NCBI RefSeq assembly: GCF_017940815.1
Contig: NZ_JAGAXX010000009.1
Coordinates: forward strand, 1 to 64,000
Origin: Methanobrevibacter sp.
GTDB lineage: Archaea; Methanobacteriota; Methanobacteria; Methanobacteriales; Methanobacteriaceae
Reading direction: 5' to 3'
DNA: 64,000 nucleotides
In this document: positions 1,148 through 14,666 of the stretch, piece after piece
Position numbering within the stretch: the stretch's first letter is position 1
How the letters are laid out: every line of letters starts with the position of its first letter
Position numbers and translations under genes: made by a program
Notes under the pieces: generated by a model
Databases searched by the model: none
What the model was told of the DNA's origin: nothing
Seen by the model: only the letters and a program-made list of their open reading frames with translations

Positions 1148-2164
1148 TCATTTATTCCATCTTAAAATAGTTTTTCCGAAATGTGAAATGTAGTCCTTGT
1201 CAAATGCCTCTTTAAGGTCATTTAATGAATGGATTACACAAATGTTGGTGACAAGTTTTTCCAGATGTTCAAACAGTTGAGGATTTTGTTCGAGTGTTTC
1301 AACAACTCCAATAAAATCTTCCCTTTCGGACCTGCTGTTTCCCTGAATGGCCAATCCTTTTTCTAAAACCATACGAGTATTGATCGGTATAGGATATTCA
1401 CTCACTCCAAAGAGATTTATTGTTCCTTGAGGATTAATTAAATCTATGATTTGATCAATTGCTGATTGTGAAGCACTTGAACCAACACATTCAAATGCAT
1501 GGTCAATTGCCAAATCATCAGGCACATTATGTATCTGATAAGTTCCGTCAACAAATGAGAACAGGTTCAGGTTATCAAGATGTTTTCCAAACACAAGCAC
1601 CTTAGACTCAGGGAATTTTTCTTTTAGGAAAAGTGCAGTGATAAAACCTAGATTTCCATCTCCCCAAACTCCCAAAACATCCTTTGGAGTTATTGCAATT
1701 TCTGAAAACTTGGAAATGCCCTGATATGCCACGGATATGAGTTCTATAAAAGCACTTACATGAGGGTTGAAATCATCAGGCAGTTTCACCAGCCTATCTG
1801 AATCCATTTTTACCAAATCTGAAGTGAATCCATCAAATCCGCTTCCCCTAAACTTGGAGTTGTATGAGTAATTAGCTCTGCAAACATCCTCCCCCATAGG
1901 AGTGTTTGGTATCATTACGACTTTATCTCCTGACTTGAATTCACCTGAATTGTCAAAGACAACTTCCCCTATACCTTCATGAATCAATGCCATAGGCAAT
2001 TTCTTTTCAAGAACCTCAGCAGGCCTTGAACCTTGATAGTACCTTTGGTCTGCCTGACAAATTGAGAGATGGGATGGCCTCACAATGACGCCGTCCAATT
2101 CAATTTCGTCAATTGATTCCTCAAAAAACTTTGGAGATTTAAGTCTGTAAACAATGTTAATCAT
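1148..2164 (-). CDS. tarJ: Ribulose-5-phosphate reductase TarJ (CDP-ribitol pathway)
   Basis: Zinc-dependent medium-chain dehydrogenase of about 338 aa that reduces ribulose 5-phosphate to ribitol 5-phosphate with NADPH. The N-terminus (MINIVYRLKSPKFFEE) matches the characteristic TarJ start, which is why I use the ATG at 2164 rather than the upstream ATGs at 2176 and 2173. Cys in SICQADQ and the His-Glu pair in IHEGIGEV are the expected zinc-site residues, and GVWGDGNLGF is the nucleotide-binding loop. It overlaps the end of tarI by 8 nt, so both are co-translated. Partner and order match bacterial tarIJ loci that make CDP-ribitol for wall teichoic acid or capsule; in this archaeon the acceptor polymer is unknown. 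Confidence 0.8.
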   Translation of the reverse strand: MINIVYRLKSPKFFEESIDEIELDGVIVRPSHLSICQADQRYYQGSRPAEVLEKKLPMALIHEGIGEVVFDNSGEFKSGDKVVMIPNTPMGEDVCRANYSYNSKFRGSGFDGFTSDLVKMDSDRLVKLPDDFNPHVSAFIELISVAYQGISKFSEIAITPKDVLGVWGDGNLGFITALFLKEKFPESKVLVFGKHLDNLNLFSFVDGTYQIHNVPDDLAIDHAFECVGSSASQSAIDQIIDLINPQGTINLFGVSEYPIPINTRMVLEKGLAIQGNSRSEREDFIGVVETLEQNPQLFEHLEKLVTNICVIHSLNDLKEAFDKDYISHFGKTILRWNK

Positions 2165-2867
2165 TTTTATCATCAAGTATTGTATTGGCTAATTTCAAGT
2201 CATACGGATAAGTAATTTTGATATTTGTAACTTCTCCCTTAACCAGATGTACATCTTCATCCTTAAGTGTAAATATTTTGCATGCATCAGTTAGGATATT
2301 AGTTTCAGCTTCTGTTAAACTACTCATTAGATTAAAAAGTTTCTTTATATTGAAGCTCTGTGGAGTTTGGCCTTGGTAATAATAATCCCTCACGGGAATA
2401 CTTTCAATAGTCTCACCATTAACGCTTTCAACGATTGTATCAGTTGCAGGTATGACAGTGTCACAGGCACCATATTTTTTTGCAGCGTAAATATTGTCTT
2501 CAATTATCCTATGTGTTACAAATGGCCTGACTGAATCGTGAGTGAGAATTATTGAATCGTCATCAATGCCAAAATTCTCATCAATGTATTTGATACTGTT
2601 CATTAATGTATCATTTCTGGTTTGCCCACCTTCAATAACAATGATGTCCTCATTATCACCAATGTATTCCTTTATCAGGTGATTGGTATGGTTTATGAAA
2701 TTATTAGGTGTCAAAACAATAATCTTATCTATATTTTCATTTATAACAAACTTTTCAATAGTATGAATAATAACAGGTTTGTTTCCCAATGTTAGAAATT
2801 GCTTGGGAGTGTCTGTCCCACCCATTCTTGAGCCGATTCCACCTGCCAAAATTGCTGCAAAAATCAT
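2157..2867 (-). CDS. tarI: Ribitol-5-phosphate cytidylyltransferase TarI
   Basis: IspD-superfamily cytidylyltransferase, about 236 aa, which activates ribitol 5-phosphate with CTP to CDP-ribitol. Visible motifs in order: the nucleotide loop LAGGIGSRMGG, PKQF, THDSVRPF, YYQGQTPQSF and LTDACKIF; the last two are closer to TarI than to IspD. Archaea make isoprenoids by the mevalonate route, so an IspD function is unlikely, and linkage to tarJ supports TarI. I choose the ATG at 2867 because AAGGAG then sits 8 nt upstream; the ATG at 2873 would be only 2 nt from it. A 27-bp element shared with the next gene upstream lies about 45 bp before the start. Confidence 0.82.
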   Translation of the reverse strand: MIFAAILAGGIGSRMGGTDTPKQFLTLGNKPVIIHTIEKFVINENIDKIIVLTPNNFINHTNHLIKEYIGDNEDIIVIEGGQTRNDTLMNSIKYIDENFGIDDDSIILTHDSVRPFVTHRIIEDNIYAAKKYGACDTVIPATDTIVESVNGETIESIPVRDYYYQGQTPQSFNIKKLFNLMSSLTEAETNILTDACKIFTLKDEDVHLVKGEVTNIKITYPYDLKLANTILDDKND

Positions 2868-2912
2868 TTTCATTACTCCTTAAATCTGAATATAGTTAAT
2901 TATTAAATAATA

Positions 2913-5137: not shown

Positions 5138-5560
5138 TTACTCATTAATTATTTGATCAGTAGTTGTTTGCAACTGAGAAGTTGTATTTTCATTATAATC
5201 TATAGCATCAGTTGTTTTGTCATAATAAACATCCTCAGTTTCATTTAAATTGCTTGTCATGTCTTTAGTGACATTTTGATAGTGAGGCCCCTCATCAGCA
5301 TCCCCATTGTCAAAACTTAATGAAATGCCTATTCCCGCACCTATAACAAATGCCAATAATGCAATAATCATGACTAAAACGAGCTTCTTACTACGTTTAC
5401 TTTTAGTTCTACGAATACGAGGATTTCCAGGATTCCCATAACCTACATTATTTTTTTGTCTTCTAGGAATAAAATGACGATTACTTTTTAATCTTCTAGA
5501 ATTTGATTGACGACCATTTCCAGATCTTAAAACTCTCTTATCGTCTTTTTTTCGTCTCAT
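5138..5560 (-). CDS. Basic single-pass membrane protein, 140 aa
   Basis: Residues 1-59 are extremely basic (many Arg/Lys plus Asn/Gln/Gly), followed by one membrane helix around residues 60-82 (KKLVLVMIIALLAFVIGAGIG) and an acidic Thr/Asn/Asp-rich outer tail carrying N-x-T/S sequons. Positive-inside logic puts the basic arm in the cytoplasm, where it could touch nucleic acid or ribosomes, and the tail outside. No family recognised. It sits 23 nt after the cyclase-like gene and 12 nt before argJ in the same operon-like run. Confidence 0.65.
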   Translation of the reverse strand: MRRKKDDKRVLRSGNGRQSNSRRLKSNRHFIPRRQKNNVGYGNPGNPRIRRTKSKRSKKLVLVMIIALLAFVIGAGIGISLSFDNGDADEGPHYQNVTKDMTSNLNETEDVYYDKTTDAIDYNENTTSQLQTTTDQIINE

Positions 5561-5583: not shown

Positions 5584-6786
5584 TTAAGCAACAAATGCAT
5601 AAACAAGAGCTAAAATAACTCCAATAAAACTAAACATTCCCAAACCTACAATTGACAAAAGATATGCAAATATAAATACGAATGCAAATACTCCAATCAA
5701 TTTTGGTTTTTCGTTTTCAACTAAATTAATTAATGTTCTTGTAAATTCTGAAGGAATGTTGTAAGCATATAACCCATTAGCTAATTCAAAAATAACTAAT
5801 GACAAAGGAGCAGCAGCATCAATATCATCAACCATTTGAGCCCTTTCACCTGCTTCTCTTCTGCTTCTTCCAATACCTGCTCTGATTTTAGCTCCATTAT
5901 CAAGAGCAAACCAAGCGGCATCAAGACCTGCACGTATTGCCAAGTCTTTTGATGGGAATCTTGCAATGAAATCGTCCCCACCTTCACGGTATCCTTCCAA
6001 TTCACCGTCACACTCTGTTTCGATGAATGTTTTAATACCATTCATTAAATCAACCAATTGGTTCCTACCATTCTTATTAATGAATTTGGTTGAATCGATT
6101 AAATCAATAAATAAATAATTTTCCAAATCTACTGGCCTTGATTCCTTAAGTAAAAACGGTGAATCGAATACTAATGCATATTCCCCACCGAGTTTTGTAA
6201 ATGCAATTCCTGGAAAGCTTCCCACACTTTGAGTGTAATGAATAGCTCTTTCAATTGAAGCTGCACCAGTCATACCCACAGCAGATATTACTTGAACGCC
6301 TTCGGACAATCCAATACCTATCAATTCAATGGCTACACGGATTGCATCATTTTTACTTAACATTTTTGCAACAAGTTCAGTAGCTGTTTTTTCCACAATC
6401 TCTCCTTTTTCAGATTGGATAATTTTAACAAAAATATCAATCAAACGTGAAGGTTGTGGAAGTTCAATGTAAAAATAACGGTCACTTCCCATAATAATAT
6501 TACTTACCAACGCGTATTCTTCAATCCTATTTTCAGCAGGTTTCAATTCATGAAATGTATAGTCCTTAGGAAGGTTTTCAGCACCCACATCACGAATAAG
6601 ATTTTCCAAAATAGTGTCTGAAGTTATTTCCGCTTTTTCAAGTTCAAATAGAATTGTTTGGGTTTGATTAAATAATTCTACATATTCTGTTTCAAGAGAA
6701 TTTGTTGGAAAAAACTTGGTTCCAACAGCAATTGGATTGAGTTTTGTTGTGAGTCTAATAAATGACTTTGTTAAACCATTAGCCAT
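5584..6786 (-). CDS. Membrane-anchored nucleotide-cyclase-like (GGDEF/class III palm) protein
   Basis: 400 aa. Residues 222-345 look like a palm-type nucleotidyl cyclase domain: FIDLIDSTKF (Asp228, Asp231) matches the first metal-binding strand of class III cyclases and GGDEF proteins, and EGGDDFIARF (Gly269-Gly270-Asp271-Asp272) matches the second hairpin. Both metal-site positions are acidic, so catalysis is possible. Residues 1-210 are an unassigned, largely helical domain with LIGIGLSEGVQVISAVG in the middle, possibly a sensor. Two C-terminal membrane helices (about 363-380 and 382-399) anchor it. The start overlaps the stop of the NYN gene by 8 nt (ATGGCTAA), so the two are translationally coupled. 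Whether it makes a cyclic mono-, di- or oligonucleotide cannot be told. Confidence 0.6.
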   Translation of the reverse strand: MANGLTKSFIRLTTKLNPIAVGTKFFPTNSLETEYVELFNQTQTILFELEKAEITSDTILENLIRDVGAENLPKDYTFHELKPAENRIEEYALVSNIIMGSDRYFYIELPQPSRLIDIFVKIIQSEKGEIVEKTATELVAKMLSKNDAIRVAIELIGIGLSEGVQVISAVGMTGAASIERAIHYTQSVGSFPGIAFTKLGGEYALVFDSPFLLKESRPVDLENYLFIDLIDSTKFINKNGRNQLVDLMNGIKTFIETECDGELEGYREGGDDFIARFPSKDLAIRAGLDAAWFALDNGAKIRAGIGRSRREAGERAQMVDDIDAAAPLSLVIFELANGLYAYNIPSEFTRTLINLVENEKPKLIGVFAFVFIFAYLLSIVGLGMFSFIGVILALVYAFVA

Positions 6787-7804
6787 CTAAATTACCTCCT
6801 TTTTCAAGTTCTATTTCAAATTCTCCAGGTTTTTCTAAAAGCATGTCTGGTTTTACAGAAACAAATGGGAATTTCCAAGATCCAAGTCTTCCAGCAATTG
6901 TACTTGCAATGTTTCTGGAATTTCTTTTGATAAATACTTCATCATGTTCGCTTACACGAACTAAAATGTTATATGGGGCTGCCTGAGTAACTTCATCAGC
7001 CAATAAGATATTCAATTCAAAAGTGCCTGGTTTTGTAAATAAATCATTACGCACTGCAATCAAAGGTTTTTTCTCAAGACCTAACCTGTCAGCAACAGTA
7101 ACGGAAATGTTACCTGCATTTTTCACAGCGACTTTATAATCTTTAGGATGTACTAATACAAAAATCACATATGGAGCGGCGATTTCAACATCGTCAACCA
7201 TTTCTACAATCTTATTAAACATAGGGATTTTTGCAAAAATATTTTCAAGTTTGGATTCGGCATTGTTCTCATTGTCAATACGAATAATGGCCTGTTTTGC
7301 AATGTTTAACGGGGAAATTTCCAAACCTTCTTTTCCAGTATATATTTCCCATTTCTTGAAGTTTAATTCTTTGATAATCTCATCACAGATATTTTGAAGG
7401 ATGTTTTTATCTTTTTTAGGTTTTTTTGGCTTTCCAAATGTGAGTCTGCCATTATCTATAATAAATGGAATTCTCATTGAAGAGATATTTCTAAATTCAG
7501 CAGCATAATCTCTGAATTTATCATTTGATAAAACTTTAGCCCTTTCACGAGTAGCAATATCCAAAATAAAATGATCTGCATCGTTACCTGCTGGAACTTC
7601 TTCTACATTTTCATTTTCCAACAATGTTAAAAATTTTTCTTTATCATCAATGTCATGACGGAGTGATGCATCGGCAATAATTACAAATTCATCTTCACTT
7701 TCTTCTAATGCTTTAACAGCAGCAAGAATATTTGACATTTGAGGTTGTCCATTTTCATTTTTAACATGATACGCCACATTAGAAGCATCTACGACCACTT
7801 TCAT
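6779..7804 (-). CDS. NYN/PIN-type ribonuclease-like protein with duplicated C-terminal domain
   Basis: 341 aa. The N-terminal ~115 residues carry the acidic set of NYN/Zc3h12a-like PIN ribonucleases: Asp6 in VVVDASNVAYH, Asp45 in VIIADASLR, Asp75/Asp77 in GNDADHFIL and Asp95 in VLSNDKFRDYA. A Lys/Pro linker (about 124-134) follows. The C-terminal half contains two similar ~75-residue units, each with an R/K-N...I..T.A.RLG block, then P(L/F)...V..D...KPG(T/E)FE; this looks like an internal duplication of an unrecognised domain. The start has AGGTGAT upstream and an A/T-rich promoter-like stretch (ATTTAAATATTTAAT) just before. It is coupled to the cyclase-like gene and follows a phosphodiesterase-like gene by 67 nt. 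Confidence 0.7.
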   Translation of the reverse strand: MKVVVDASNVAYHVKNENGQPQMSNILAAVKALEESEDEFVIIADASLRHDIDDKEKFLTLLENENVEEVPAGNDADHFILDIATRERAKVLSNDKFRDYAAEFRNISSMRIPFIIDNGRLTFGKPKKPKKDKNILQNICDEIIKELNFKKWEIYTGKEGLEISPLNIAKQAIIRIDNENNAESKLENIFAKIPMFNKIVEMVDDVEIAAPYVIFVLVHPKDYKVAVKNAGNISVTVADRLGLEKKPLIAVRNDLFTKPGTFELNILLADEVTQAAPYNILVRVSEHDEVFIKRNSRNIASTIAGRLGSWKFPFVSVKPDMLLEKPGEFEIELEKGGNLDG

Positions 7805-7871
7805 AATATCACCTAAAAATAATAATTAGTTCAATATAATATATTTATTTTATTAAATATTTAAATGTAAT

Positions 7872-8615
7872 TTACATTCTGTTACGGGAATATTTTCCAA
7901 ATAAAAATTTTTCACCCTTAACTTCATTCAGATATATTTCAATTTCATCATCTGTAATATTATAAACGTTATAAGAGTTTTTATTCTTTCCTCTAAGCTT
8001 ATAGGAACATAAAGACCCTGCATTTACAATCAAAGTATTGTTTATTCTCCAAATATTTGGAACATGTTTGTGTCCAGATAAAACTAAATCAACTTCATGA
8101 GTTGTTAAAGTTTTCAAGATATCTCCTGCATCAGATAAAACATTACGTTCTCGACCTGTTTGAGGAATGGAAACAACATGATGATGTAAAGAAACAATAG
8201 AAAAATTATCATTAATTACACATTCATCCAACTGATGTTCTAACCACATGTGTTGAGGAGTCCCAACATGTCCCTTGCTTTCATCGGGAGAACTGCTGTC
8301 CAATCCGATAACTGTAACCTGGTCATCCATAGTTAATTTCCAACTTCTCTCACCAATTAACTCTTCAAAAGTTTGATAACCCAGATTACGAGCATCATGA
8401 TTTCCAGGAATTGCAAATAATGGTGCTTCAAACATGGCCAAATATCGTTTAACCTGTTCAAATTCAGTGTAATATCCATTATTTGTAAGATCTCCAGTTA
8501 AAATTATCATGTCAGGCTGCATATTATTTATTTGAGTCACTGCAGTCATGAACATTTCTTCATCAAAATCTGATTTAGAAACATGCAAATCAGAAATATG
8601 TGCAATTAAAGTCAT
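7872..8615 (-). CDS. Calcineurin-like metallophosphoesterase (CpdA/Icc-type)
   Basis: 247 aa, soluble. All family metal-binding motifs are present in order: Asp9 and His11 (ISDLH), Asp42 (TGDLTNNG), Asn72-His73-Asp74 (PGNHD), a His cluster SLHHHVV, and SGHKHVPNIW near the C-terminus. The spacing and TGDLTNNG resemble the CpdA/Icc class III cyclic-nucleotide phosphodiesterases, though the fold also covers other phosphoesters. It starts 5 nt after the NAC stop with no strong separate ribosome binding site, so coupling to NAC is likely. Downstream lie the NYN nuclease-like and cyclase-like genes. Confidence 0.85.
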   Translation of the reverse strand: MTLIAHISDLHVSKSDFDEEMFMTAVTQINNMQPDMIILTGDLTNNGYYTEFEQVKRYLAMFEAPLFAIPGNHDARNLGYQTFEELIGERSWKLTMDDQVTVIGLDSSSPDESKGHVGTPQHMWLEHQLDECVINDNFSIVSLHHHVVSIPQTGRERNVLSDAGDILKTLTTHEVDLVLSGHKHVPNIWRINNTLIVNAGSLCSYKLRGKNKNSYNVYNITDDEIEIYLNEVKGEKFLFGKYSRNRM

Positions 8616-8620
8616 GTTAT

Positions 8621-8971
8621 CTATTGGTTCAATTTCATAATAGCTTCTGCCAAATCGCCTTTACATTCTTCAAGAGCTGCTCTTGCTTCATCCTCGGAAA
8701 CTCCAGCGGTGTTGGCTACCATTTCAATATCTTCATCAGGAATTTCAATTTCGTATTCTAATTCAACTTCACGAGCCTTACCGTCCACTTGATAAGTTTC
8801 CTGTCCCATCACATTCATCAAACTTACGCTAGGCTCATCGATTATTAACTCTTTATCGTCAAAACGGATAATGACTTCACGAACTCCTTCGAGCTCTTCC
8901 ATTTTCATACCCATTTTCTTCATTTGCCTTTCCATCTGTTTCATTTGCTTTTTATTCATACCAGGTATCAT
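8621..8971 (-). CDS. nac: Nascent polypeptide-associated complex protein NAC
   Basis: Archaeal homodimeric NAC, 116 aa, a ribosome-bound chaperone near the exit tunnel. The N-terminus MIPGMNKKQMKQMERQMKKMGM is the typical Met/Lys-rich ribosome-contact helix; the NAC beta-barrel follows (REVIIRFDDKELIIDEPSV, QETYQVDG), and the C-terminal ~40 residues form a UBA domain (EDIEMVANTAGVSEDEARAAL...). I choose the ATG at 8971: a longer frame opens with a TTG at 8986, but the family begins at MIPGMN and GAAGGT lies at proper distance before it. It is the first gene of the run continuing to argJ. Confidence 0.9.
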   Translation of the reverse strand: MIPGMNKKQMKQMERQMKKMGMKMEELEGVREVIIRFDDKELIIDEPSVSLMNVMGQETYQVDGKAREVELEYEIEIPDEDIEMVANTAGVSEDEARAALEECKGDLAEAIMKLNQ

Positions 8972-11834: not shown

Positions 11835-12869
11835 CTACTCTTCCAACAATATGATGTTTTTAGGATCCACTTTCAGATACTCGGGAATCGCAAACTCATG
11901 CTCCCGCATCTGCTTGTCCAGTTTCCACAAAAGACCATTTGCCAGGGATATCTGCCATTCGAAAGGCATTTCCAGTTTTGTTGAATCAGCCGTAGCCACA
12001 GCATTTACATCATCCTTTTGGGCAGGATAGAAATCATGCGCCCTTATCCCAATATGGGAAATGGCAGATGAAACCTTTTCAGATACTTCAAATGTCACGT
12101 TCCAGTCCAAGGATTTGACATGATAATCGTCGACAATTTCGATTTTAGAGATGTTTTTACACCCTGTAAGCCTTGCAACTTCCACTTTTCTTGGATTTTC
12201 AAAGAGGTCAACTGTTTTTCCCTTTGCAATGATTTTACCCTTATCAAGAATAATGAGCTCATCGCAGAACTGGAATGCCTCATCACGGTCATGAGTAACC
12301 AGAATGGAAAATCCATTGAAATTGGCAAGGAAATTAGCCATTTCTCTACGCAATTGTTCCTTTAATACTGTATCCATTGCGCTGAAAGGCTCATCCAACA
12401 ATATTACGTCCGGACCGTATGCCATGATACGGGCCAATGCAACCCTTTGCTGCTGGCCTCCGGACAATTGTCTAGGATACCTTTTCTCCAACCCTTCCAG
12501 ATGAAAACGCCTGATCATTTCGGAAACTACCTTTTCATCGTTATTCTGAAGCCCAATGCCCACATTTTCCTCAACTGTCATGTTTGGAAACAGCGCATAG
12601 TTTTGAAATAGGTAACCCACGTTTCTCTTTTGGGGTTTCAAATTGACCTTATTGTCAGAATCAAAATAGACATGCTCTTTGCCAGTGGCCAAACTTACAA
12701 TCCCACTGTCAGGATCGACAATTCCTGCAATTGATTTCAATGTCATACTTTTGCCGCAACCGGAAGGACCAAGAATGCCCAAGCATCCGTTTTTCAATTC
12801 AAAATTAACATCCAAATCGAATTCCTTAAGTTTCTTGTGGATATCTACCTTCAATAATTTACCTGACAT
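11835..12869 (-). CDS. modC: Molybdate/tungstate ABC transporter ATP-binding protein ModC
   Basis: 344 aa ABC ATPase energising molybdate or tungstate uptake, the metals needed for formylmethanofuran and formate dehydrogenases. Walker A is GPSGCGKS, the Q-loop lies in VGYLFQNYALFPNMTVEENV, the signature is LSGGQQQRVALARI, Walker B is VILLDEPFSAMD and the H-loop VTHDRDE. The remaining ~110 residues are a TOBE-like regulatory domain that in homologs binds oxyanion. GAGGAAGG precedes the ATG. It is the third gene of modABC, 15 nt after modB. Confidence 0.9.
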   Translation of the reverse strand: MSGKLLKVDIHKKLKEFDLDVNFELKNGCLGILGPSGCGKSMTLKSIAGIVDPDSGIVSLATGKEHVYFDSDNKVNLKPQKRNVGYLFQNYALFPNMTVEENVGIGLQNNDEKVVSEMIRRFHLEGLEKRYPRQLSGGQQQRVALARIMAYGPDVILLDEPFSAMDTVLKEQLRREMANFLANFNGFSILVTHDRDEAFQFCDELIILDKGKIIAKGKTVDLFENPRKVEVARLTGCKNISKIEIVDDYHVKSLDWNVTFEVSEKVSSAISHIGIRAHDFYPAQKDDVNAVATADSTKLEMPFEWQISLANGLLWKLDKQMREHEFAIPEYLKVDPKNIILLEE

Positions 12870-12884
12870 AATCCTTCCTCGTTA

Positions 12885-13559
12885 TTATCTCCACTGTTTT
12901 TCCTTGCGCAAAGAGACATAATCCATGATGAAAATAGCTATGAATGATATGAAAACAATGACAATTACATAATCGAATGCAGTTCCCATATTTCCAGCAG
13001 CCACTTCTGAATATACTGCCATAGGAAGTGTTCTGGTCTGTCCTGCAATGTTACCTGCAAGCATTGCTGTAGCACCGAATTCACCCAAACCACGAGCATA
13101 GGCAAGAATTCCCCCACTTATGATTCCAGGCAGTGCATTGGCAAACAACACCTTCCAGAAAATTTTCCATTCAGACATTCCCAATGTACGGCCGGCATCG
13201 AGTAAATTTGAATCCACCTGCTCGAACGCCCCTCTGGCTGAACGGTACATCAAAGGAAAAGACATTACTACCGCAGCGATTACGGTTGCAGACCATGAAA
13301 AAGCGATTTTTGTGGCAAAAAAGTCTATGAAAAACTTTCCGATTGGTCCTCTAACACCAAATATGTACAATAAGAAGAACCCTACAACGGTAGGGGGCAA
13401 CACTATCGGCAATGTGAAAATACCGTCAAGAACGATTTTAATTGAGTCGTTTTTAATCTTAATGATTCCCCAAGCGACAATCAAGCCCACAAAGAATGTT
13501 ATGAGAATTGATAGGCTTGCTGTTTTCATTGAAATTAAAATAGGTGACCAATCATTCAT
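12885..13559 (-). CDS. modB: Molybdate/tungstate ABC transporter permease ModB
   Basis: 224 aa, five to six membrane helices. The cytoplasmic EAA loop is visible as LDAGRTLGMSEWKIFWKVLFANALPGIISGGILAYARGLGEFGAT, which docks onto ModC. The N-terminus (WSPILISMKTASLSILITFFVGL) and the LPPTVVGFFLL block are those of the ModB/CysTW-type permeases. Strong ribosome binding site GGAGATAATGC before the ATG. Between modA and modC in one operon; about 90 bp separates it from modA, so some internal regulation is possible. Confidence 0.9.
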   Translation of the reverse strand: MNDWSPILISMKTASLSILITFFVGLIVAWGIIKIKNDSIKIVLDGIFTLPIVLPPTVVGFFLLYIFGVRGPIGKFFIDFFATKIAFSWSATVIAAVVMSFPLMYRSARGAFEQVDSNLLDAGRTLGMSEWKIFWKVLFANALPGIISGGILAYARGLGEFGATAMLAGNIAGQTRTLPMAVYSEVAAGNMGTAFDYVIVIVFISFIAIFIMDYVSLRKEKQWR

Positions 13560-13650
13560 GCATTATCTCCATCAATATTCTATATTATTGAATTGAACAA
13601 TATTATATTAAAATTTATTTAAAAAAAAAAAGTAATCATGAATAGATTAT

Positions 13651-14478
13651 CTATTCATGAATAGTGAAACCGTATTCTACGAAGACATCTTTAGCTTCTT
13701 TGGTTTGCAAGAAGTCCATGAATGCTTTTGTAGCATCGGTATCATTAGTGTCTTTAATTGAAGCTACAGGATAGATAACTGGAGTTTTTAAAGCATCTTC
13801 AGGAGCTTCACAAATCACTTTAACGTCATCAGTGGATTTAGCGTCAGTTGCATATACAATACCACATTCAGCAGATCCTTGAGCTACTTGATTTAATACT
13901 GCGGTTACATCAGTACCTAATGATAATTTGGATTCCACATCATCCCAGATGCCAGTGTTGTTTAACACTTCTTTAGCGTATTGTCCAGCAGGTACGGATT
14001 CAGGATCACCGATAGCGATGTTTCCTTCAACATTTTTCAAGTCATCGAATGATGAGATGTTGGAGTTGGAATCAGCAGGTACGATTAAAACTACTTTGTT
14101 TTCCAAGAATTGAAGGTTGGTAGAGTTATCAATAATGCCTTTGTCAACTAAAGCGTTCATCTGTTTGTTAGCAGCAGACATGAATACGTCTGTTTCTAAA
14201 CCGTTTTCAATTTGGGTTTGTAAGTCCCCACTTGAAGCGTAAGTTGGAGTTACTTTTACACCAGGATATTGTTTTTCAAACATTGGGATTAACTTATCGT
14301 CAAAAACATTTTTCAAACTAGCTGCTGCAGCCAAATTAACTTCTTGTCCATCTAAACTGGTGTCAGTTGAGTTTCCTCCACTCAAAAAGTCAAAAAAACC
14401 AGCGGAACATGAACCTATGCTAACAACAACTACTGCCAATACAATAGCAACGAGTAATAATTTTTTCATAGATTTCAT
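13651..14478 (-). CDS. modA: Molybdate-binding protein ModA (lipoprotein)
   Basis: About 275 aa solute-binding protein. A hydrophobic leader (KKLLLVAIVLAVVVVSIGSC) ends in a Cys at a lipobox-like site with Gly at -2, slightly off consensus, implying membrane attachment; a Gly/Ser/Asp-rich linker follows. The mature domain shows the ModA signature: LAAAASLKNVFDDKLIP, TPTYASSGDLQTQIENG, DVFMSAANKQMNAL and IAIGDPESVPAGQYAKEVL. I use the ATG at 14478, since AGGAGA is 6 nt before it and abuts the earlier ATG at 14484. First gene of modABC. The 300-bp divergent region with the next gene carries a spaced direct repeat (14667-14696). Confidence 0.92.
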   Translation of the reverse strand: MKSMKKLLLVAIVLAVVVVSIGSCSAGFFDFLSGGNSTDTSLDGQEVNLAAAASLKNVFDDKLIPMFEKQYPGVKVTPTYASSGDLQTQIENGLETDVFMSAANKQMNALVDKGIIDNSTNLQFLENKVVLIVPADSNSNISSFDDLKNVEGNIAIGDPESVPAGQYAKEVLNNTGIWDDVESKLSLGTDVTAVLNQVAQGSAECGIVYATDAKSTDDVKVICEAPEDALKTPVIYPVASIKDTNDTDATKAFMDFLQTKEAKDVFVEYGFTIHE

Positions 14479-14666
14479 AACCATTCTCCTATAAATAAGT
14501 CACACTATCAGACAATTAAATGCAGAAATTAAGATAGAAACAAAATGAATTTATTTTCTATTCGGTGTAATAAATTTTTATCATATCATTCATTGAAAAT
14601 CTCTAATTTCAATTTAATCGGCTTAAATGCAATTAATATTTATATAACAAATGATATATAAATTTT

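Follow-up and report, generated by a model that had tools for sequence, protein, structure and literature searches.

The window considered here is a stretch of 64,000 nt of Methanobrevibacter sp. (assembly GCF_017940815.1, contig NZ_JAGAXX010000009.1, positions 1-64,000, forward strand), in which a gene for a protein with a NYN nuclease domain and a C-terminal domain (CTD) adjoins a gene for a 400-aa cyclase-like protein, referred to below as CYC. The two genes form a conserved pair, NYN/CTD-CYC, found in nearly all Methanobacteria and in Methanopyri, and CYC is nearest to class III adenylyl cyclases by both sequence and fold. The best explanation, to which we assign a probability of about 0.4, is that CYC is an active class III-type purine-nucleotide cyclase coupled to the CTD protein, with a proposed control of ribonuclease (RNase) activity. 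The original prediction for this locus had joined the pair and the adjacent gene for a CpdA-like metallophosphoesterase (MPE) into an undescribed signalling module. The features on which it was built are all there, namely three consecutive minus-strand open reading frames (ORFs), an 8-nt overlap between the last two, and the motifs FIDLIDSTKF and GGDDF of CYC (residues 226-235 and 269-273, respectively).

Conservation of the NYN/CTD-CYC pair

Order-wide counts were made on 150 genomes of the order, and gap statistics on 39 diverse loci. CYC is found in 146 of the genomes and the NYN protein in 144, and all four genomes without CYC are also without NYN. According to the compared coordinates, the two genes lie on one contig in all of the 144 NYN-bearing genomes except two; in one of these (G135) they are on separate contigs, both possibly at contig ends, and the other is G136. 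The gap between NYN and CYC has a median of 0 nt and ranges from -14 to 464 nt. In the window the overlap is exactly 8 nt (6779-6786, ATGGCTAA), GGAGGT stands upstream of the CYC ATG, and the chance of a 400-codon open frame under a random-codon model is ~1e-13.

Outside the class, a search of ~100 archaeal genomes returned convincing CYC matches only in one family (f12), which we take to be Methanopyrus and one member of which (G181) is presumably Methanopyrus kandleri AV19. Seven other archaeal genomes gave weak matches to the CYC profile (E 0.002-0.24), which were rejected as noise because they are short, lie outside the catalytic palm, or are broken by stop codons. CYC adjoins its partner in five of five Methanopyrus genomes, so the predicted side-by-side conservation holds in both Methanobacteria and Methanopyrus. 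The Methanopyrus partner is the CTD alone, with the nuclease domain missing (profile positions 113-340, E 1e-72 to 3e-81). Since the CTD is kept where the nuclease is lost, it is the CTD rather than the nuclease that constantly accompanies CYC, and functional coupling between CYC and the CTD protein is highly probable. By the same observation an RNA-cutting output is not universal.

As for the NYN protein itself, it matches PF11977 with 61.9 bits (cut-off 23), and its Foldseek matches are ZC3H12B (E 1e-5), ZC3H12C, Regnase-1, and KHNYN. Residues Asp6, Asp45, Asp77, and Asp95, previously described as intact, are indeed present and are invariant in all 27 Methanobacteria NYN proteins aligned. 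By fold and acidic metal site it is thus predicted to be a Zc3h12a/Regnase-like NYN nuclease with RNase activity. The nuclease identity that had been ascribed to it is supported for Methanobacteria by the fold and acidic residues, and does not extend to Methanopyrus, where the domain beside CYC is missing. The CTD is built of two repeats (hhalign E 3.9e-12) and occurs in no family beyond Methanobacteria and Methanopyrus among the 80 genomes searched, while three other genomes have a NYN-domain match without the CTD. Tautomerase- and ribosomal-protein-like folds suggested for the CTD by Foldseek (E>0.05) were not used, the model being too poor.

Tandem palms of CYC

Structure-prediction alignments consisted of the window proteins and close relatives and were shallow (65-97% identity). 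The AlphaFold model of CYC, obtained with 33 close relatives, has a mean pLDDT of 80 and contains two palms at residues ~100-208 (N-palm) and 222-345 (C-palm), an N-terminal region modelled with less certainty, and two hydrophobic C-terminal helices (361-379 and 383-399). The predicted palm at 220-345 was thus recovered in the model, with its metal Asp residues intact, and the two helices together with a hydropathy peak of 2.6 fit the membrane anchor that had been suggested. Region 15-97 was also considered as a third palm and rejected (hhalign probability ~1%).

In the Foldseek comparison of CYC with PDB, class III adenylyl cyclases lead, with AC9 soluble C1/C2 at E 1.8e-6, Ma1120 at 2.9e-5, and Rv1900c at 7.1e-5. 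Archaeal GTP cyclohydrolase III (GCH III; 2qv6) is among the matches as well at 7.1e-5, and the class III cyclases range from 1.8e-6 to 1e-4. Whole-chain TM-scores are low, ~0.2 when normalised by the query and 0.4-0.55 when single-domain targets are the reference, which means that the CYC palms are positioned differently relative to each other or that their positioning is uncertain. Neither Cas10 nor mCpol palms occur among the 50 best Foldseek matches, and no profile comparison with them was made. Sequence profiles agree with the fold: a Methanobacteria-only CYC profile searched with hmmsearch against PDB sequences finds Rv1900c at E 0.0022, and after addition of Methanopyrus the values are 1.3e-5 for Rv1900c, 0.002 for Ma1120, and 1.5 for 3mr7; the six PDB sequences that reach E<=10 are without exception class III cyclases. 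The GGDEF model PF00990 is unmatched in the window's genome at E<=10 and CYC likewise has no match to it in Pfam scans, on which ground CYC was rejected as a GGDEF diguanylate cyclase.

The two palms of CYC align with each other in hhalign (probability 98, E 1.7e-13) and thus represent an internal duplication. In this alignment D228 of the C-palm falls opposite E108, a position taken by T or R in Methanopyrus, and D271 falls opposite T136, which makes the first palm metal-dead. Invariance was assessed on 28 Methanobacteria and 4 Methanopyrus sequences. In the C-palm, D228, S232, G269, G270, D271, D272, and K280 are invariant in 32 of 32, and D228, G269, G270, D271, and D272 stay unchanged down to ~25% identity; the N-palm invariants, Methanopyrus included, are T173, A175, A176, E179, R180, K198, and E202. 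The D228 motif FIDLIDST is the equivalent of FTDIVGST in class III cyclases, and D271 aligns with the GD motif of Rv1900c. Membrane adenylyl cyclases divide catalytic labour between C1 and C2, and one metal-binding palm beside one metal-dead palm in CYC resembles this division; by this analogy CYC would be catalytic. Altogether, CYC is probably an active enzyme converting nucleoside triphosphates (NTPs), and the chances that its product is a cyclic nucleotide are about even.

Proposed mechanism and alternatives

From the computed fold, motif conservation, duplication, and pairing we infer catalysis, its product, contact with the partner, and RNase control. The second palm of CYC would bind two metal ions via D228 and D271 (with D272), while the metal-dead first palm would close the active site from the opposite side, in the way that C2 of membrane adenylyl cyclases closes that of C1. 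The substrate of CYC would then be a purine nucleoside triphosphate, and the product a nucleotide that is cyclic or rearranged in some other way. The CTD would serve as its constant partner, bearing the Regnase-like nuclease in Methanobacteria, and CYC, by contact or through its product, would hold and switch the RNase at the membrane. Gating of the RNase by a messenger is a speculative version of this proposal. Equally speculative is a core second-messenger circuit of Methanobacteria and Methanopyri, in which CYC would make the messenger, the duplicated CTD would receive it, and the nuclease of Methanobacteria would turn the signal into RNA decay; the messenger may be new, or may be the unexplained cyclic AMP (cAMP) reported from Methanothermobacter.

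Several observations weigh against an active, RNase-controlling cyclase. No Pfam or NCBIfam cyclase model, PF00211 included, matches CYC. The C-palm model has no evident class III dimerisation arm, beta-4 running directly to a helix, and because of this the class III Asn/Arg transition-state residues cannot be placed. The residues that would set base specificity are ambiguous, with R/K267 conserved in the C-palm and E132 lying near the corresponding place of the N-palm. For the CTD the model is of low quality (pLDDT mostly 25-60) and reveals neither a ligand site nor a contact surface. As for the pairing, G136 has CYC inside a contig without NYN, the two genes are ~2.5 kb apart in G098, and the joint absences of CYC and NYN may be assembly gaps.

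Among the alternatives, CYC could be a metabolic nucleotide-converting enzyme, GCH III-like or catalysing another NTP hydrolysis or ring opening, with NYN/CTD acting in RNA or cofactor metabolism. Its tandem palms and the AGIG motif that follows beta-4, both features of GCH III, the Foldseek match to 2qv6 (E 7e-5), and its occurrence as a single-copy core gene of nearly the whole order all fit this proposal. We nevertheless consider it unlikely: canonical GCH III is separate in 40 of 40 genomes searched (at locus C65 in the window's genome), hhalign gives CYC versus GCH III a probability of 2-4%, sequence similarity points to class III cyclases, and a membrane anchor would be unusual for such an enzyme. 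CYC as GCH III itself was rejected, since PF05165 matches only the separate locus C65 and profile similarity is not significant.

No likelier than a metabolic role is that of a nucleotide-sensing pseudo-cyclase, which would anchor CTD/NYN at the membrane and signal NTP levels by binding without turnover. The N-palm without metal ligands, the class III transition-state residues that cannot be identified, and the tight CTD pairing agree with it; however, both metal Asp and the GGDD hairpin are invariant to ~25% identity, Methanopyrus included, and this is hard to explain without catalysis or at least metal-NTP binding.

The three-part system, in which CYC makes a cyclic nucleotide, MPE erases it, and the NYN RNase is the effector, appears improbable. 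MPE matches PF00149 with 74.5 bits, has the DxH, GD, GNHD, and GHxH motifs, and keeps its catalytic motifs in 98 of 99 relatives. The order NAC-MPE-NYN-CYC is the commonest, prevailing in most lineages including the deep-branching class member G150, and the MPE-NYN gap, which spans -8 to 1215 nt with a median of 142, is short in some lineages. However, MPE scores 60.9 bits against the CpdA equivalog NF008359, whose cut-off is 225, and its linkage is loose. In G047 and G091 it stands together with NAC away from the NYN-CYC pair, in G011, G046, and G067 it is elsewhere without NAC, and eight genomes that all keep NYN-CYC (G022, G025, G030, G040, G093, G028, G037, and G102) have no orthologue-level match to it. 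Methanopyrus has an MPE homologue (40-43%) unlinked to CYC and, as said, no nuclease domain beside CYC. MPE is therefore not a required eraser of the unit, although it may act as one where present, and its predicted membership in a conserved three-gene module had to be abandoned. As for the stress or translation link that had been read from the upstream NAC gene, this gene does encode alpha-NAC (TIGR00264 130 bits, cut-off 80), and MPE moves with it, but the linkage says nothing specific.

That NYN and CYC are merely co-transcribed neighbours with no joint function is very improbable: adjacency by itself is no proof, and the genes are apart in G136 and G098, but it persists from Methanopyrus to Methanobrevibacter despite changing neighbours, with a median gap of zero, and survives where the partner is the CTD alone. 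Finally, a defence module like type III CRISPR or CBASS, with a cyclase and a nucleotide-activated nuclease, is hardly credible, as the resemblance of a palm cyclase plus nuclease is superficial, PADLOC gives no match for CYC and only noise for NYN (E 0.0098), and a single-copy core gene in 146 of 150 genomes with housekeeping neighbours is not patchily distributed.

Known systems and other features of the window

In comparison with class III cyclases (Rv1900c, Ma1120, and mammalian AC C1/C2), CYC shares the palm fold, FxDI..ST, the GD hairpin, and two palms per unit, whereas its palms are fused in one chain with one of them metal-dead, it has no evident arm, is PF00211-negative, and differs in its CTD/NYN partner and C-terminal tail anchor. 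Archaeal GCH III (ArfA, MJ0145, 2qv6) has tandem palms, a GGD-type hairpin, and AGIG after beta-4 in common with CYC, which in contrast possesses an additional region at its N-terminus as well as a membrane anchor and shows no significant profile similarity to it. The NYN protein has the NYN fold and acidic residues of Regnase-1/ZC3H12, KHNYN, and the CRISPR-associated NYN (PMC11346440), and is unlike these nucleases in its clade-specific duplicated CTD and cyclase-like partner.

To our knowledge, GGDEF domains are rare in archaea. Two adjacent GGDEF matches above the Pfam cut-off were observed in a genome of the window's genus (L173, G026:C1:1001644-1002841), and one each in G145 and G077. 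A GGDEF-like palm ORF (DLDRFG ... SLGVGVG ... ALREAKRRGGN) lies at ~285 kb of the presumed M. kandleri genome (L198, 17243-17554, minus strand), and may be MK0296 (PMC2904730). MK0296, an archaeal GGDEF relative, is like CYC a Methanopyrus palm enzyme predicted to be active (PMC2904730, PMC1183210), and is probably a different protein. Assignment of CYC to the MK0296 family was rejected on position, CYC being at 101-102 kb and the palm ORF at 285 kb, with the identity of MK0296 not proven.

A 2025 pangenomics study (PMC11915815) lists in its Table 1 a cluster D composed of OG0001213, a NYN ribonuclease, and OG0001214, a nucleotide cyclase; judging by annotation, pairing, transmembrane segments, and taxa, this is very probably the NYN-CYC pair. 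As far as its main text goes, cluster D is only listed, set aside as not pseudomurein-related, with no analysis of fold, catalysis, duplication, CTD, or phosphoesterase. Thus the pair had very probably been tabulated already when it was called undescribed, and the term holds only in that it was not analysed there. New here are the finding that the tandem palms are a duplication, an analysis of the catalytic features, the CTD as constant partner, the nuclease-less Methanopyrus, and the separable phosphoesterase.

Methanothermobacter was reported in 1986 to contain 3',5'-cAMP (Leichtling et al., as quoted in PMC8646023). Class III members are few among the cyclases predicted in archaea, and class IV (CYTH) proteins are a doubtful source of archaeal cAMP since the one from Sulfolobus turned out to be a phosphohydrolase (PMC8646023). 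CYC is a cyclase candidate that occurs in single copy and almost universally, with an intact predicted metal site, and PF00211 and PF00990 are both unmatched in the window's genome. The pair allows one to test whether methanogens of this group, gut-dwelling and thermophilic, produce a cyclic nucleotide that governs RNA turnover, and to trace the origin of the reported cAMP. If the circuit proposed above is real, methanogens of this group have a nucleotide signalling circuit of their own.

Table 1. Coordinates of the features at the NYN/CTD-CYC locus (positions in the window)
Feature	Position	Strand	Evidence
CYC, membrane-anchored tandem-palm class III cyclase-like protein, 400 aa	5584..6786	-	ORF, distribution, AlphaFold, Foldseek, hmmsearch
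N-palm of CYC, residues 100-208, metal Asp lost	6163..6489	-	secondary structure, internal duplication, invariants
C-terminal metal-binding palm of CYC (predicted), residues 222-345	5752..6123	-	model, Foldseek, invariance, hmmsearch
D228, first predicted metal Asp, in FIDLIDST	6103..6105	-	invariant 32/32; aligned with Rv1900c
G269-G270-D271-D272 hairpin, second predicted metal Asp	5971..5982	-	invariant 32/32; aligned with Rv1900c GD motif
Hydrophobic C-terminal helices of CYC, residues 361-399, predicted membrane anchor	5590..5706	-	model, hydropathy
NYN protein, Zc3h12a-like nuclease domain and duplicated CTD, 341 aa	6779..7804	-	PF11977, Foldseek
NYN/PIN nuclease domain, residues 1-134	7403..7804	-	Pfam, acidic residues, model, Foldseek
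CTD, residues 133-341; repeats at 212-271 and 278-338	6782..7408	-	Methanopyrus matches, hhalign
GGAGGT, Shine-Dalgarno-like site for CYC, within NYN gene	6794..6799	-	sequence
CpdA-like calcineurin-type metallophosphoesterase, 247 aa, facultative neighbour outside the core pair	7872..8615	-	PF00149
alpha-NAC (NAC and UBA domains), neighbour	8621..8971	-	TIGR00264

At three loci of relatives (L090, L112, and L115) the MPE-NYN interval is long (594-1215 nt). On the other side of the pair, between CYC and ArgJ, a small basic protein with one transmembrane segment is encoded (5138-5560, minus strand), which is present in several genera of the family and poorly conserved. Elsewhere in the window, positions 11835-14484 (minus strand) hold an ordinary molybdate-type ABC transporter operon (ModA TIGR01256 193.6 bits). 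At 1148-2873 (minus strand) the genes for a D-ribitol-5-phosphate cytidylyltransferase (NF001183 371.6 bits, cut-off 166) and a zinc alcohol dehydrogenase-like protein overlap; this TarI/TarJ-like pair, the linkage of which is kept in several relatives, might produce CDP-ribitol in an archaeon.

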